DNA from: Clostridiales bacterium
GTDB lineage: Bacteria > Bacillota > Clostridia > Lachnospirales > Lachnospiraceae
Direction: 5' to 3'
Assembly: GCA_012839295.1 (NCBI GenBank)
Contig: DUNO01000061.1
Location: forward strand, 62,001-126,000
DNA length: 64,000 nt
The notes beneath the pieces are model-generated. The model was given only the letters and a program-made list of their open reading frames with translations, made no database searches and was not told where the DNA came from. Position numbers and translations under genes: made by a program. Positions 16,001 to 55,222 of this stretch are shown piece after piece (within the stretch, counting starts at the first letter, position 1; every line of letters starts with the position of its first letter).

Positions 16001-16089
16001 TTACGTACACCTCCTTATATCTTTTATAGACTGACGTGTCACCGGCAATCTTTCTATCTTGTATCAGACAACCGACATCCGGTTCTGTA

Positions 16090-16220
16090 AGACACAAAAA
16101 AAGCCTCATCCTGCCAAAGCATGGAGAGGTCAATAAAATCAATACAGATTAAATTAACTTTCCTCGGTAGGCGGCTTCTCACCTTACGCCCTGCGGCACC
16201 TACTGTCTTCGGCAGTTTTA
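16090..16220 (-). promoter_or_regulatory. L10 leader (rplJ autoregulatory RNA)
   Basis: The minus-strand RNA runs from ACTGCCGAAGACAGTAGG through GCCGCAGGG and GGTGAGAAGCCGCCTACCGAGG to a final hairpin (CCTC...GAGGC, about 16096-16130) followed by TTTTTTT. This matches the known L10 leader, in which excess L10-L12 complex binds the kink-turn region and controls the operon. The terminal hairpin with its T-run suggests attenuation here. Confidence 0.85.
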
Positions 16221-16232
16221 TTCACAAGTTGC

Positions 16233-50434: not shown

Positions 50435-50797
50435 ATGACTAAGGGACAGGCTGAGGCTAAAATAAGTGAAGCTGTAAGTAAGTTTGAAATTGAATTTATG
50501 GGCAGAGGGCCAAAGCAAATAAGGACCCTGATTTTTCAAGATATGATTGTGATCAGACTCAAGGGTTTCTTAAGCCAGTCGGAGCAAAAACTGGCGGAGA
50601 ACAGCCAAGGAGTTGAATTACTGAAAAAAGTAAGGGTGACGCTTTTTGAAAGTGCAAGAAGCTGTTTGGAAGCTCTTATCAAAGAAGTTGTAGATATCGA
50701 CATTATTAGTACTTATTCTGATGTTAGTACTAAAACCGGAGAAAAAATCATTGTAATTACTGTAGGGGAAAATCTCGAAGATAGATTTGACAAATAG
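50435..50797 (+). CDS. DUF2294 family protein
   Basis: 120 residues. KISEAVSKFEIEFMGRGPKQIRTLIFQDMIVIRLKGFLSQSEQKLAENSQGVELLKKVRVTLFESARSCLEALIKEVVDIDIISTYSDVSTKTGEKIIVITV fits DUF2294, a small widespread Firmicutes family. The RGP, DMIVIRLKG and E-x-x-A-R-x-x-L blocks are conserved. The function is unknown. Upstream of a duplicated RNA element and the DUF4914 gene, but probably a separate transcript. Confidence 0.8.
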   Translation: MTKGQAEAKISEAVSKFEIEFMGRGPKQIRTLIFQDMIVIRLKGFLSQSEQKLAENSQGVELLKKVRVTLFESARSCLEALIKEVVDIDIISTYSDVSTKTGEKIIVITVGENLEDRFDK

Positions 50798-50810
50798 AAT
50801 AGTATAACTT

Positions 50811-50857
50811 GGAAGACCATGCAAAGGGTTTTAAACAACCAGTTGTAACGTAATCCA
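50811..50857 (+). promoter_or_regulatory. Aptamer-like RNA element, copy 1
   Basis: Shares with copy 2 the ordered blocks GGAAGACCA, AAGGGTTT, a short A-rich loop with ACC, CGTA-type residues and GTAATCC. Outer bases TGGA and TCCA can pair. Confidence 0.6.
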
Positions 50858-50915
50858 GCAATTACTTTCCCATAAAAGATATAGTTATTAGCTTTTGTTA
50901 TATCAAACGAAAATC

Positions 50916-50959
50916 GGAAGACCAGTCGAAGGGTTTAAAAACCAAACGTAGTGTAATCC
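50916..50959 (+). promoter_or_regulatory. Aptamer-like RNA element, copy 2
   Basis: Second copy of the element, about 105 nt after the first. GGTTT and AACC can form a hairpin (GGGTTTAAAAACC); GGA and TCC can close the element. Its final AATCC is also the start of the terminator stem that follows, the usual arrangement of a riboswitch expression platform. Confidence 0.6.
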
Positions 50960-51006
50960 AATATTTGTTGACTTTTTAATTAGGTCAATAAATATTGGAT
51001 TTTTTT
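50955..51006 (+). terminator. Terminator between the RNA element and the DUF4914 gene
   Basis: Arms at 50955-50972 (AATCCAATATTTGTTGAC) and 50984-51001 pair over 17 of 18 positions, with TTTTT after the stem. It lies 210 nt before the DUF4914 ATG, so it would act as a conditional terminator. Confidence 0.85.
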
Positions 51007-51215
51007 AATTATCCTTTATATATAAAAAGTCAGGAGGTGTGCTCGTATTAGCATAGCCTTATCATGTTGATGGGGATATTCTAAAGGATGGTAAATGAAT
51101 CGTATCGGAAACAAAAGCTAACCAATATATTGGGGAACATTATTATGGATGCCTGCAACAGAATTATTAAGGATTTCAAATCGTATAAAAATAACGGAAT
51201 AGGATGTGATGTTCA

Positions 51216-53093
51216 ATGGAAGAAATGATTGGTAAAATGATTTTGCCGGATGAATTAAAAAACATACTGGCAAGCGGAGTGAAGGTTACAGTACCTGAAA
51301 GCCGCAGTGAGCTTATTGACTTGGCACTAGGCGGTAATTGCAACAATATTTTTGAGGTGGCTTATGATGTGCCTGGAAAAGGACGTGTAGTTGAAGCTAC
51401 GGTTGCAAGATGTAAAAATGGTGCTGTTATTAATTATACCGACACTTATCTAAGAAGGCGTGACCCGGATTGCATGGTTATTGCCGATGAGGGAGAGTCC
51501 GATAAGCAGCGCTACAGAGACAGGTACGGGAGTGAATTTACTCCTCTGAGAAAAATGACCTTTGAGTGGTTGGCAGAACAAAACCTTATATTAATGCCAT
51601 TTATGGCAGGTGGAGAGGAACTGGGCTATCCGATTCTTCTTGTAGCCCCTGACAATGCAGGCTTTTTTGCAGGAGGACTTGCGGATTTGCAGGGCTTTAT
51701 ACCGGGCAGCAAGCTGGAGGAAGGCTTTAAGCCTAAGGCAATCATATATCTTGCGCCAACTTTCAGGCACACCCACTTCGATGGGAAGCAGATGGTTGTC
51801 CATAACAGGCTTGATGATGTATATGAGATGTTTTCATACAACCTATACCCTGGCCCAAGCGCAAAAAAAGGTGTTTATGGAGTGCTTTTGAAAATCGGTG
51901 AGGACGAGGGGTGGGTAACAGCCCACGGATCAACTGTCATGGTAATTACACCTTATGAAAATGTAATTACTATAATGCATGAAGGTGCAAGCGGCGGAGG
52001 CAAAAGCGAAATGACCGAACAGCTTCATAGGGAGCTTGACGGGAGAATACTCATCGGTAAAAATCTTGTCACATCAGAAAAAATACACCTCGAGCTCAAG
52101 GAAGCCTGCGATTTAAGGCCTGTGACCGATGACATGGCTTTATGCCACCCAAGGCTGCAGAATGGAAGCAAGAAACTGGTTGTCAAGGATGCGGAAAACG
52201 GTTGGTTTTTGAGGACAGACCATATAAAGAGATACGGAACCGACCCCTATCTTGAAGGCATGTGTACTCACCCGGAAGAGCCTTTGACTTTTCTGAATTA
52301 TGATGCAGTCCCTGGCTCTACATGCCTGCTCTGGGAGCATGCTATGGATGCCCCAGGAAAACCTTGCCCGAATCCAAGAGTAATAATGCCAAGGAGGTTT
52401 GTCCCCAATATCGTTGATGAGCCTGTCGAGGTCGATGTCAGAAGCTTTGGCGTACGCACTCCACCCTGCACAAGGGAGAAACCGACCTATGGTATTATAG
52501 GCCTTCTCCACATCCTTCCACCAGCACTCGCATGGCTTTGGAGACTAGTGGCTCCCCGTGGGCATGACAATCCGAGCATTACTGATACCGGGGGAATGAG
52601 TAGTGAAGGTGTCGGCTCCTACTGGCCCTTTGCCACCGGTAAAATGGTAAACCAGGCAAATATTTTATTAAAACAAATGGTGGAGACCTCCAACACAAGA
52701 TATATATTGGTTCCAAACCAGCATATCGGAGCTTACAAGGTTGGTTTCATGCCCCAGTGGATCGCAAGGGAATATCTTGCCCGCCGTGGCAGCGCAAAAT
52801 TCAACCAGCAGCAGTTGGTTGAATCAAGATGCTCCCTTTTGGGTTACGCTTTAAGCAGTATAAAAGTAGATGGTACATTCCTGCCTAAGGATTTATTGGA
52901 GACTAACAGGCAGCCGGAGGTTGGCAACGAGGCGTATGACGAAGGCGCAAAGATGCTTGCAAATTTCTTTAAGGAACAGCTGGCGGCCTTTGTAACTCCT
53001 GACCTTGATCCTCTGGGCAGGCAGATTATTGAATGCTGCATATCTAACGGCACCATTGATGAATATATGAAATTTATACCAATGAAGTTTTAA
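51216..53093 (+). CDS. DUF4914 family protein with PEPCK/HPr-kinase-like P-loop
   Basis: 625 residues. A P-loop HEGASGGGKSEMTEQL lies at about residues 258-273, and the following ...LVTSEKIHLELKEACDLRPVTDDM... and GRILIGKN stretch fit the phosphoenolpyruvate carboxykinase/HPr kinase fold. N-terminal segment VPESRSELIDLALGG, FEVAYDVPGKGRVVEATVARCKNGAVINYTDTYLRRRDPDCM and later HPRLQNGSKKLVVKDAENGWFLRTDHI are conserved in DUF4914. It does not carry the complete PEPCK catalytic set that I know, so the reaction is unknown. Its leader contains a tandem RNA element with a terminator. Confidence 0.85.
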   Translation: MEEMIGKMILPDELKNILASGVKVTVPESRSELIDLALGGNCNNIFEVAYDVPGKGRVVEATVARCKNGAVINYTDTYLRRRDPDCMVIADEGESDKQRYRDRYGSEFTPLRKMTFEWLAEQNLILMPFMAGGEELGYPILLVAPDNAGFFAGGLADLQGFIPGSKLEEGFKPKAIIYLAPTFRHTHFDGKQMVVHNRLDDVYEMFSYNLYPGPSAKKGVYGVLLKIGEDEGWVTAHGSTVMVITPYENVITIMHEGASGGGKSEMTEQLHRELDGRILIGKNLVTSEKIHLELKEACDLRPVTDDMALCHPRLQNGSKKLVVKDAENGWFLRTDHIKRYGTDPYLEGMCTHPEEPLTFLNYDAVPGSTCLLWEHAMDAPGKPCPNPRVIMPRRFVPNIVDEPVEVDVRSFGVRTPPCTREKPTYGIIGLLHILPPALAWLWRLVAPRGHDNPSITDTGGMSSEGVGSYWPFATGKMVNQANILLKQMVETSNTRYILVPNQHIGAYKVGFMPQWIAREYLARRGSAKFNQQQLVESRCSLLGYALSSIKVDGTFLPKDLLETNRQPEVGNEAYDEGAKMLANFFKEQLAAFVTPDLDPLGRQIIECCISNGTIDEYMKFIPMKF

Positions 53094-53227: not shown

Positions 53228-55222
53228 CTATCTTTTTTCCTTAATCAACCCCTTCCGGTAAGCCTCCAGCAGCTTCTCAAGATCCCTGATCTGGATCTTT
53301 AATTCTTCTCCGATATCAGTATCTCCCACCCTTTTACGGATTACCTCCTGCTCCAGCACAACTGTGGTGGAATGGATGTCTCTTTCCTCTTCAATAGCCT
53401 TCTGGGTGGATTCAAAGGGTTCATGGGATACCAAAAGCAGACCATAGGAATTATAGATTAAGGTATAGCCTGCAATTCCAGTCTGTGCCTGGTACGCCCT
53501 GGAGAAGCCGCCATCGATTACCAGCAGCTTTCCATTGGCCCTTATGGGGCTTTCCCCTTTTTTAATTTCTACCGGAACATGGCCGTTAATGATATGGGAG
53601 GTTCTTGGATCCAAGCCAAACTCCTGGAAGATCATGTTACAGATCCCCTCATCATTTTGCAGCTTAAAGTATGGATCCCTTTTTTCCATATGGGTTTCCT
53701 TTTCTTTTATAAAGTAGCGCTCAAAGGTGGTCATTCTCTCTTTTCCAAAGAGGGGGGAATCAGGACCGCACCAGAGATACCACATCATATCCATGGCGTA
53801 TTGCTTTGCCTGGGGATTCTTCGTATTAAAATACCCTTCCCTTGCCAGGATATCCAGCCGGTCTAAATAGGCTTTGCCGCTATATTCCCTTCCTGAGGCA
53901 TCAAGCCTGATCCCCTTAAAGCTTCCATCCGGATTTAGCGGGATGCACCCATGGTACAAAAGATTGGAATTATTCTTCAAATACATGCTTCCATTGGAAT
54001 ATAGGAAGCTGATATGCTTTTGCAGCTTTTCGCTGTTTATGAAGGAGGATTTTAATTTATCAATCAGCTCCTGCTCCTCGGGGATCAGCTCATAAGGCCG
54101 CTCCAGGTCGACGGTAGGAAAATGAGTATCCTTTAACAGATAGTTTTTTCCATCCACCTCTACTTCCCCGCTGTCAGGGCGGATATTCCCCAGGAGCAGC
54201 CGGTCCTCCATATGATAATCCGGGTGGCGCAGGATGGTCCTCCCCTCCAGCTTAAGCTGGAGAATCGTAATTGCCTTATGCATCTGGGCAATCAACTGGA
54301 CCTCACTGCTGTTGACCCCCTCCTTACCATCCAGCTTGGGCTGGAAGCATTTGCATTCGTCCCTGCCATAGTATTTCATGGCAAAGGTGGCCAGGGGAAG
54401 CAGATTGATGCCATACCCGTCCTCGATGGTCTGCAGGTTGGCATATTTTGTGCTGATCCTGAGCACAGTTGCAATGCAGGCTTCATTTCCCGAAGCCGCT
54501 CCCATCCACAGCATGTCGTGGTTCCCCCACTGGATATCCACGCTATGGTAGTTTATCAACGTATCCATGACAATATCCGCACCGGGACCGCGGTCAAAGA
54601 TGTCCCCTATAATATGTAGCCTGTCAACCACAAGCCTCTGGATCAATTTTGATATGGCAATGATAAATTCCCTGGCACGGTCAATCCGGATAATAGTCTG
54701 GATGATCTCACTATAATACTCTTCCTTATCCCGTTCATCCGCTTCCTCATGCAGGAGCTCCTCAATGATATAGGCAAAATCCTTTGGTAACGCCTTTCTT
54801 ACCTTGGACCTGGTGTACTTGGAGGATGCATACCGGCAGATCTCAACTAACCGGTATAGGGTGACCCGGTACCAATCCTCCAGGTTCTCTTCTTTCCTTT
54901 GCACTATCTCAAGCTTTTGCTCCGGGTAATAAATCAGGGTTGCCAGACTCTTGATATCATTTTCCCCCAGGGACTTTCCGAACAGGTCTTTGATTTTACG
55001 CTTAATGGCGCCGGAGGCATTTTTTAAAACATGATCGAAGGATTCATTCTCCCCGTGGATGTCTGATAAAAAATGCTCCGTACCCTTTGGTAAATTCAAA
55101 ATCGCCTGGAGGTTGATTACTTCAGTACAGGCCGCTGCAATGGTAGGGTACTGGCTCGATAAGAGCTTAAGGTATCTTAGCTCATTTTCCAGCTCCCTGC
55201 TTTGAAATTCTTCTTTATTCAT
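53228..55222 (-). CDS. fbp: Fructose-1,6-bisphosphatase, class III
   Basis: 664 residues, the Firmicutes class III enzyme. The metallophosphatase blocks are present: [54 protein letters not shown], and later [15 protein letters not shown] and [10 protein letters not shown]. Removes the C1 phosphate of fructose 1,6-bisphosphate in gluconeogenesis. Standard length. Alone on its strand, with a good ribosome binding site. Fits growth on lactate or other small acids. Confidence 0.96.

Follow-up and report, generated by a model that had tools for sequence, protein, structure and literature searches.

A structured antiterminator RNA linked to mpsC and a candidate inorganic-carbon regulon

Two copies of a small RNA motif lie between an mpsC gene and a DUF4914 gene of a Clostridiales bacterium, in a stretch of 64,000 nucleotides (nt) of contig DUNO01000061.1 that is called the window hereafter. 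We are highly confident that this motif represents a new class of structured antiterminator RNA. Computational comparison of its relatives reveals a conserved hairpin whose closing helix excludes an intrinsic terminator, a close linkage to mpsC in many Bacillota, and downstream genes that are largely concerned with inorganic carbon. On balance, the small protein MpsC would probably act as an RNA-binding antiterminator of an inorganic-carbon regulon in the manner of HutP and PyrR, binding the hairpin, turning genes ON and responding to CO2 or bicarbonate (HCO3-). The relevant features are listed here, with scores from two of the three covariance models used (R1, R2 and R3).

50435-50797, + strand: mpsC (MpsC/DUF2294 family, 120 amino acids (aa); PF10057, E 9.1e-36)
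50809-50859, + strand: RNA copy 1, without a terminator of its own (R1 24.8 bits; R3 56.8 bits)
50914-50962, + strand: RNA copy 2, the antiterminator (R1 18.2 bits; R3 48.6 bits)
50916-50918 (GGA) with 50957-50959 (UCC), + strand: helix P1 of RNA copy 2
50955-51008, + strand: intrinsic terminator with 20 pairs and a T-tract; 50955-50962 of its 5' arm are common with copy 2
51216-53093, + strand: DUF4914 gene, the proposed target (625 aa, predicted phosphoenolpyruvate carboxykinase (PEPCK) fold; PF16260, 1085 bits)

A first-pass annotation had described two copies that share the same ordered blocks, and these were found again on the + strand (80% identity over 30 nt and 74% over 27 nt, with spacings of 105 and 103). 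The last block of copy 2 does double as the 5' arm of a terminator, with a 20-pair stem at 50955-51001 (arms 50955-50972 and 50984-51001) and a T-tract. Copy 1 has no such terminator. Two terminator-like sites occur in the stretch scanned against a shuffle mean of 0.5, and a promoter scan gave nothing above shuffles. Copy 1 starts 12 positions past the last mpsC base, and a leader of about 215 nt separates the terminator from the DUF4914 gene.

The window copies are not chance occurrences, as they are recovered by R1, a covariance model built from six DUF4914 relatives (L003, L005, L007, L009, L010 and L017) with the window excluded. When R1 was run with filters off on 85 kb, copy 1 scored 24.8 bits (E 0.0019) and copy 2 scored 18.2 bits (E 0.073), and with default filters on 143 kb copy 2 alone was listed (E 0.12). 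Model R3, whose training included both window copies, finds copy 1 in its own genome with an E value of 1e-10 and no third convincing copy there (next match 19.7 bits, E 0.87). The first-pass annotation placed the motif in no known riboswitch class, and Rfam 15 likewise holds no family that matches the window copies at gathering thresholds, nor meaningfully at E values up to 10. Among 18 other motif-bearing loci searched against Rfam at gathering thresholds, only rRNA and tRNA were matched, and the motif copies were not.

The conserved fold is best seen in alignment A6, which holds 46 instances (45 distinct; about 46 nt each in the window) with the consensus YGG-AAG-AC ... P2 ... (A)AAG ... 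P3 ... AG ... GU-AAG-CCR. It is a single hairpin in which helix P1 is followed by an internal loop (AAG/AAG), two AC/GU pairs, P2, another internal loop rich in purines, and P3; the P3 loop is variable and the purine loops are highly conserved. Standard pairs fill 94.3% of the 583 cells, compared with at most 40.1% when the structure is slid by 1-3 columns. Cells in which both bases have changed number 106, against 35.6 in shuffles (standard deviation 4.3), and none of 500 shuffles reached this value. Changes on both sides occur at 10 of 13 pairs, a value reached by 19 of 500 shuffles, whereas the number of further pair types did not exceed shuffles, 145 of 500 of which reached it. A6 had been aligned to fit the structure, but RNAalifold recovers these helices from the alignment columns; a smaller alignment, A3, gave a similar covariation result.

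The overlap with a terminator is a general property of this RNA. Of the 75 distinct instances, 72 can pair the motif end with an arm that precedes a T-tract, as is the case for 6.7% of 1500 shuffles of the downstream DNA; at least 9 of 11 positions, namely the final 7 nt of the motif and the next 4, were required to pair, with G-U allowed, and instances followed by fewer than 60 nt of DNA would have been excluded. Window copy 1, L054 and the second tandem copy of L141 do not show this pairing. Thus, the conserved fold can be recognized as an antiterminator, an ON switch that sequesters the 5' arm of the terminator, from which regulated read-through is inferred. The same logic had been read from the window alone, where the closing pairs and the terminator exclude each other, and it is borne out by these instances, by RNAalifold and by folds of the growing transcript. 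For copy 2, minimum-energy folds keep P1 (G50916-C50959) at transcript ends 50960-50996 and change to the terminator at 51000. The copy 2 hairpin alone has a predicted energy of -8.1 kcal/mol versus -23.2 kcal/mol for the terminator, and therefore read-through needs something that stabilizes the hairpin. In L141:12663-12711 (- strand), the second tandem copy has no terminator, and its P1 3' strand could pair with GGGGGGAC, a ribosome-binding-like stretch, which hints at translational control.

The first-pass annotation had assigned this RNA to the DUF4914 gene, which it does precede in the window, but that view was too narrow because the RNA tracks mpsC and precedes many other genes. The directly upstream mpsC gene, absent from that annotation, is its more constant partner. 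A search of 200 family genomes with the exact window pattern matched the window alone, and DUF4914 is present in 15 of these genomes. Fuzzy matching of the DNA upstream of DUF4914 showed that 7 of the 15 carry a related element (the window and the six loci used for R1), so that the expected conservation in relatives was found for these and not for the other eight. The division follows mpsC exactly: the RNA is present in 7 of 7 DUF4914 genomes with a PF10057 match (G000, G099, G127, G082, G045, G054 and G110) and in 0 of 8 without one (G024, G055, G144, G033, G166, G087, G132 and G003), with G087 showing a partial match only (24.4 bits, E 0.023). By Fisher's exact test, with relatedness ignored, such a split has a chance of 1 in 6435.

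Searches that reach beyond DUF4914 yield the same linkage. Among 295 genomes of the order, 13 contain sites that R1 recognizes, 15 in total, and 11 of these sites are at the end of mpsC (10 start no more than 130 positions past its stop, and L025 overlaps the gene end). Three others (L029, L030 and L036) come from a single genus with three genomes, none of which gave a PF10057 match, and an mpsC remnant could be read in L030 alone; the last (L038) is not linked to mpsC, although its genome carries two mpsC genes at other places. An R1 match at L031:1969 (16.7 bits) was judged spurious. Furthermore, a gene-blind, motif-only DNA pattern scan of a genome collection described as covering 84,980 species gave 44 loci, which R3 divides into 26 strong (at least 37 bits) and 18 weak (below 30 bits). 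Twenty of the 26 strong loci are 3-117 positions behind an mpsC stop, compared with none of the 18 weak loci, and when the six strong loci already used to train R3 are set aside (L171, L179, L186, L196, L197 and L208), 16 of 20 adjoin mpsC. Some of the weak loci are probably real, because L187, L193, L205 and L210 show an overlapping terminator. Across three sets, 34 of 36 linked copies start 1-29 positions past the mpsC stop, with L197 and L172 at 93 and 117 positions (L171 and L196 repeat L019 and L035 in this count).

Counts from the later models must be read with more care. With R2 at E values up to 0.01, a phylum sample showed the RNA at 10 of its 30 best mpsC loci, directly behind mpsC in nine and ahead of it in one (L044). 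At E values up to 10, 60 further loci gave nine matches, seven of them directly behind mpsC (two of which, L124 and L097, repeat L060 and L049), the other two being the second copy of L069 and a weak match of 11.5 bits. An R2 match in G795 was judged false, as it lies inside a reading frame of 1146 aa. With R3, 19 of 299 phylum genomes carry the RNA and 18 of these have PF10057, a family present in 90 of the 299; the R3 counts are partly circular because this model was trained on mpsC neighbours. For this reason, the linkage relies on R1, the table of DUF4914 genomes and the motif-only scan. Also, copies located apart from mpsC in mpsC-bearing genomes (L069, L140, L141, L213 and L214), and leader copies ahead of mpsC-accC (L042 and L044), argue from their gene positions for a factor that would act in trans.

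Many of the putative target genes of this RNA can be named with Pfam (DUF4914, PEPcase_2, PurK, AIRC, Biotin_carb, POR_N, Sbt_1 and Pro_CA). Behind the 26 strong scan copies, 23 of which have readable genes (L184, L200 and L209 are cut off), the next gene is DUF4914 in nine cases, a major facilitator superfamily (MFS) transporter in seven, a PurK-type ATP-grasp protein in four and an archaeal-type phosphoenolpyruvate (PEP) carboxylase in two. Three of the nine DUF4914 genes stand behind a small open reading frame (ORF; L172, L186 and L203), the PurK-type gene of L175 is cut before its PurK_C domain, and L197 has a small ORF and then a PPDK-domain gene. Elsewhere, the RNA precedes the Na+-dependent bicarbonate transporter Sbt_1 (L045 and L161; also L052, where the RNA match is doubtful at 12.8 bits), AIRC (PurE; L049, L213 and, as a weaker case, L166), biotin carboxylase (L042; the operon has the RNA in front of it, L163) and PEP carboxylase (L059 and L215). 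A 2-oxoacid:ferredoxin oxidoreductase follows in L047 (weak RNA match, 17.1 bits) and, by eye, in L151 and behind the second copy of L069, the locus that also has a P-II gene downstream. In L214 a carbonic anhydrase (Pro_CA) stands behind a decayed purE and a purC, with the purE remnant (reverse strand, about 1385-1430) between the RNA copy and purC-carbonic anhydrase. One cluster of Petroclostridium sp. X23 (L140) has four copies: before purK, after mpsC and before each of two DUF4914 genes.

The common thread of these genes, judged from their sequence families, appears to be carboxylation, decarboxylation or the supply of inorganic carbon. A ligand from purine biosynthesis, with purE, purC, purK and purD as neighbours, was considered as the sole theme of a riboswitch and was dropped after the PEP carboxylase, SbtA, biotin carboxylase, oxidoreductase and carbonic anhydrase targets were found. 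The MFS genes most closely match an L-lactate transporter in NCBIfam (above the cut-off in one of three tested), and similar-looking MFS genes neighbour purK-purE in L213 (by Pfam) and L141 (by eye), and PEP carboxylase in L124 (by eye). In L141 the listed target is a cation P-type ATPase that is nearest to the Ca2+ type but below its cut-off. The PEPCK-like nature of DUF4914 proposed earlier agrees with a structural model (mean predicted local distance difference test (pLDDT) score 81, some stretches below 50), for which Foldseek matched PEPCK chains (E 1.3e-19 to 1aq2, template modeling (TM) scores 0.60 and 0.69), and the protein is thus predicted to have a PEPCK fold.

Several side observations concern these loci. 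In L058 (907-1332), L140 (10781-11269), L141 (12047-12556), L142, L172 and L203, a conserved-looking ORF of about 140-170 aa separates the RNA from DUF4914 or its neighbours; the one tested, from L058, has no Pfam match. In a metagenome-assembled genome of Fusobacteria, a motif copy with an overlapping terminator precedes a gene that looks AbiEi-like by eye (L165 and L193). A firmicute-type fructose-1,6-bisphosphatase gene (window 53228-55222, - strand) is convergent with the DUF4914 gene, as a gluconeogenesis neighbour, and an L10 ribosomal protein leader (window 16088-16230, - strand) is the sole Rfam match at gathering in the window.

The protein family itself also separates according to RNA. 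At E 0.001, PF10057 is the sole Pfam family matched by each of the 89 proteins of alignment A5, and on their tree the RNA label needs six changes compared with a shuffled mean of 35.8, a number as low in none of 200 shuffles. One clade of 25 rows (98*) has the canonical RNA throughout. In another of 11 rows (99*), whose members stand ahead of alcohol dehydrogenase genes, a variant RNA follows the P1/terminator logic of the canonical one. The 34 canonical rows came equally from the motif or DUF4914 searches (17) and from mpsC sampling (17), with L048 labelled by eye and L047 on its 17.1-bit match. The variant (L089-L095, L098-L102 and L112) combines a GG..CC P1 with different internal loops and terminator overlap. 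The alcohol dehydrogenase rows were labelled by locus, with the variant found by script in 8 of 11 and by eye in the rest; the script found it in 11 of 15 frames examined, and the consensus fold from eight sequences, two nearly identical, has a small covariation term of -0.5. Other MpsC paralogs, before transporters of the DASS or amino-acid-permease type, have other stem-loops and terminators by eye (L056, L067, L072, L065 and L078), which are possibly further cognate RNAs. Some stretches after MpsC paralogs (L105 and L116), seen by eye, we take to resemble c-di-GMP-I riboswitches. Longer MpsC proteins of about 230-270 aa occur in L109, L118, L120 and L121, with a second weak MpsC match in L109 and L120 and response-regulator-like genes or regions nearby by eye. 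The main text of a study of the Bacillus subtilis RNA-binding proteome (PMC12456014) does not mention YbcI.

These data can be joined in a mechanism in which the nascent RNA behind mpsC would fold into the hairpin, with P1 formed from nucleotides of the terminator 5' arm. Left alone, the weak hairpin would lose to the terminator and the downstream genes would stay off. MpsC, usually encoded just upstream, would bind and stabilize the hairpin, probably at the two purine-rich internal loops, and the bound hairpin would block the terminator so that the downstream genes are read. We consider it likely that MpsC is the ligand of this RNA. An inorganic-carbon signal seems equally likely, and a direct or indirect response of MpsC to CO2/bicarbonate is proposed because most identified targets are inorganic-carbon genes. 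The presence of PurK and SbtA among the targets would suggest that the switch is ON at low CO2.

In the hutP and pyrR layouts, a small regulator gene is followed by an attenuator and then by the targets. The order of regulator, attenuator and target is the same for mpsC as for PyrR and for HutP in the hut operon of Bacillus subtilis, where the RNA-bound regulator prevents the terminator from forming (for HutP, as described in a section of PMC8934654). According to the same section, the site bound by HutP consists of sequence repeats in the terminator proper, unlike the structured hairpin ahead of the terminator found here. The target pathway differs from those of HutP and PyrR, and MpsC is related in sequence to none of the PDB chains and lacks a clear structural match. 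A hairpin that excludes an intrinsic terminator is also known for the ribonucleic antiterminator (RAT) of BglG, SacY and LicT and for ANTAR systems, in which it is stabilized by a protein, as is proposed here; ANTAR acts in this way at four terminators in one operon (PMC8934654, in part). In contrast to the ANTAR dual hexaloop as defined there, no A1/G4 hexaloops are evident by eye in A6, and each unit has a single hairpin with a variable P3 loop. The linked protein is also distinct from those systems, as only PF10057 was matched by the 89 proteins of A5.

The MpsC family takes its name from MpsABC of Staphylococcus aureus, where MpsAB likewise belongs to bicarbonate/CO2 physiology. Excerpts of PMC6689103 report that S. 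aureus mpsA mRNA is 1.7- to 2.5-fold lower at 5% CO2, significantly so in one of three strains, that mpsC is dispensable for MpsAB function, and that it is not collocated with mpsAB outside staphylococci. Dispensability and non-collocation may fit a regulatory role better than a role in transport.

A number of observations weigh against the proposed mechanism. Two genomes of one genus (G290 and G385) have an intact RNA (47.9 bits) and no PF10057 match, as does G733, which is 63% complete; in G450, a relative of the first two, the RNA has lost some conserved bases and R3 no longer finds it. Most mpsC-bearing genomes appear to do without the RNA, as 72 of 90 in the phylum sample have no R3 match under stricter filters, and 20 of the 30 best mpsC loci have no R2 match at E values up to 0.01. 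The AlphaFold2 model of MpsC is a small alpha/beta protein (mean pLDDT 95.6) with no recognized RNA-binding fold (the top Foldseek match has E 0.01, and TM scores reach no more than 0.48 among the matches listed), and no sequence relative is in the PDB; weak Foldseek matches, several to ribosomal uL23-like proteins, were not used as evidence. Certain targets are no obvious CO2 genes, namely the seven MFS genes among the 26 strong loci, the AbiEi-like gene (L165) and a Cache-domain gene (L038). Furthermore, the S. aureus mpsC deletion has no growth phenotype in the excerpts of PMC6689103, and joint loss by a single deletion could also yield the 7 of 7 versus 0 of 8 split.

The intact RNAs without mpsC are what would be expected of a true riboswitch, whose hairpin would itself recognize a small molecule, either bicarbonate or a metabolite from the PEP/oxaloacetate or purine-carboxylation node, and block the terminator while mpsC is a mere co-located member of the regulon. 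The highly conserved purine loops and the uniform terminator overlap suit this explanation, and the RNA resembles the riboswitches of Rfam 15 in its size, its terminator overlap and its tandem copies in the window, but not in matching any family. However, a switch for the DUF4914 pathway should persist with DUF4914, and it is absent from all eight genomes that lack mpsC (unless joint deletion explains this). Also, mpsC is upstream of the switch in most loci and is therefore not controlled by it there, and different RNAs accompany different MpsC subfamilies. A riboswitch is thus unlikely, although more probable than the remaining alternatives. Hence, of the "aptamer-like" description given earlier, the conserved structured RNA stands, and an aptamer for a small metabolite is disfavored by the co-occurrence with mpsC, which favors a protein ligand. 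The cooperative control suggested by the tandem copies does not extend to the class, as close tandems are seen only in the window and in G847 (L141).

The tight spacing of 34 of the 36 linked copies behind the mpsC stop might instead reflect translation-coupled attenuation, where the ribosome that ends mpsC covers the P1 5' strand, such that mpsC translation leads to termination and low translation leads to read-through. This seems quite improbable given that the same fold is found away from the mpsC end (the L140 purK leader, the second copy of L069, L213, L214 and the L044 leader) and that L197 and L172 are 93 and 117 positions away. An even less probable reading of the position directly behind mpsC and ahead of a terminator is that the terminator is an ordinary one and the conserved hairpin a 3' end stabilizer with no regulation. 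Against it, the terminator and the conserved fold compete with each other, some copies stand in leader regions apart from mpsC and ahead of carbon genes, and in L017 the DUF4914 gene directly follows the terminator.

With MpsC preferred as an antiterminator, a broader possibility can be raised tentatively, at somewhat less than even chances: the MpsC (DUF2294) family may be a large unrecognized class of RNA-binding antiterminators with one leader RNA for each subfamily, the main one forming the first RNA-level circuit to sense CO2 or bicarbonate and to govern the inorganic-carbon regulon across Bacillota. To our knowledge, there is no RNA-level sensor for CO2 or bicarbonate, and a literature search, from which subscription journals were mostly uncovered, returned nothing on this system or on such a sensor. 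CO2 and bicarbonate are substrates of essential reactions, and the proposed mechanism, if true, would be a new form of bacterial control over an essential nutrient. It would also provide a function for the widespread family PF10057, one that fits the dispensability of mpsC for S. aureus bicarbonate transport (PMC6689103, in part). Similarly, DUF4914, with its predicted PEPCK fold, would be placed in a carbon-node regulon, and a compact switch would be gained.
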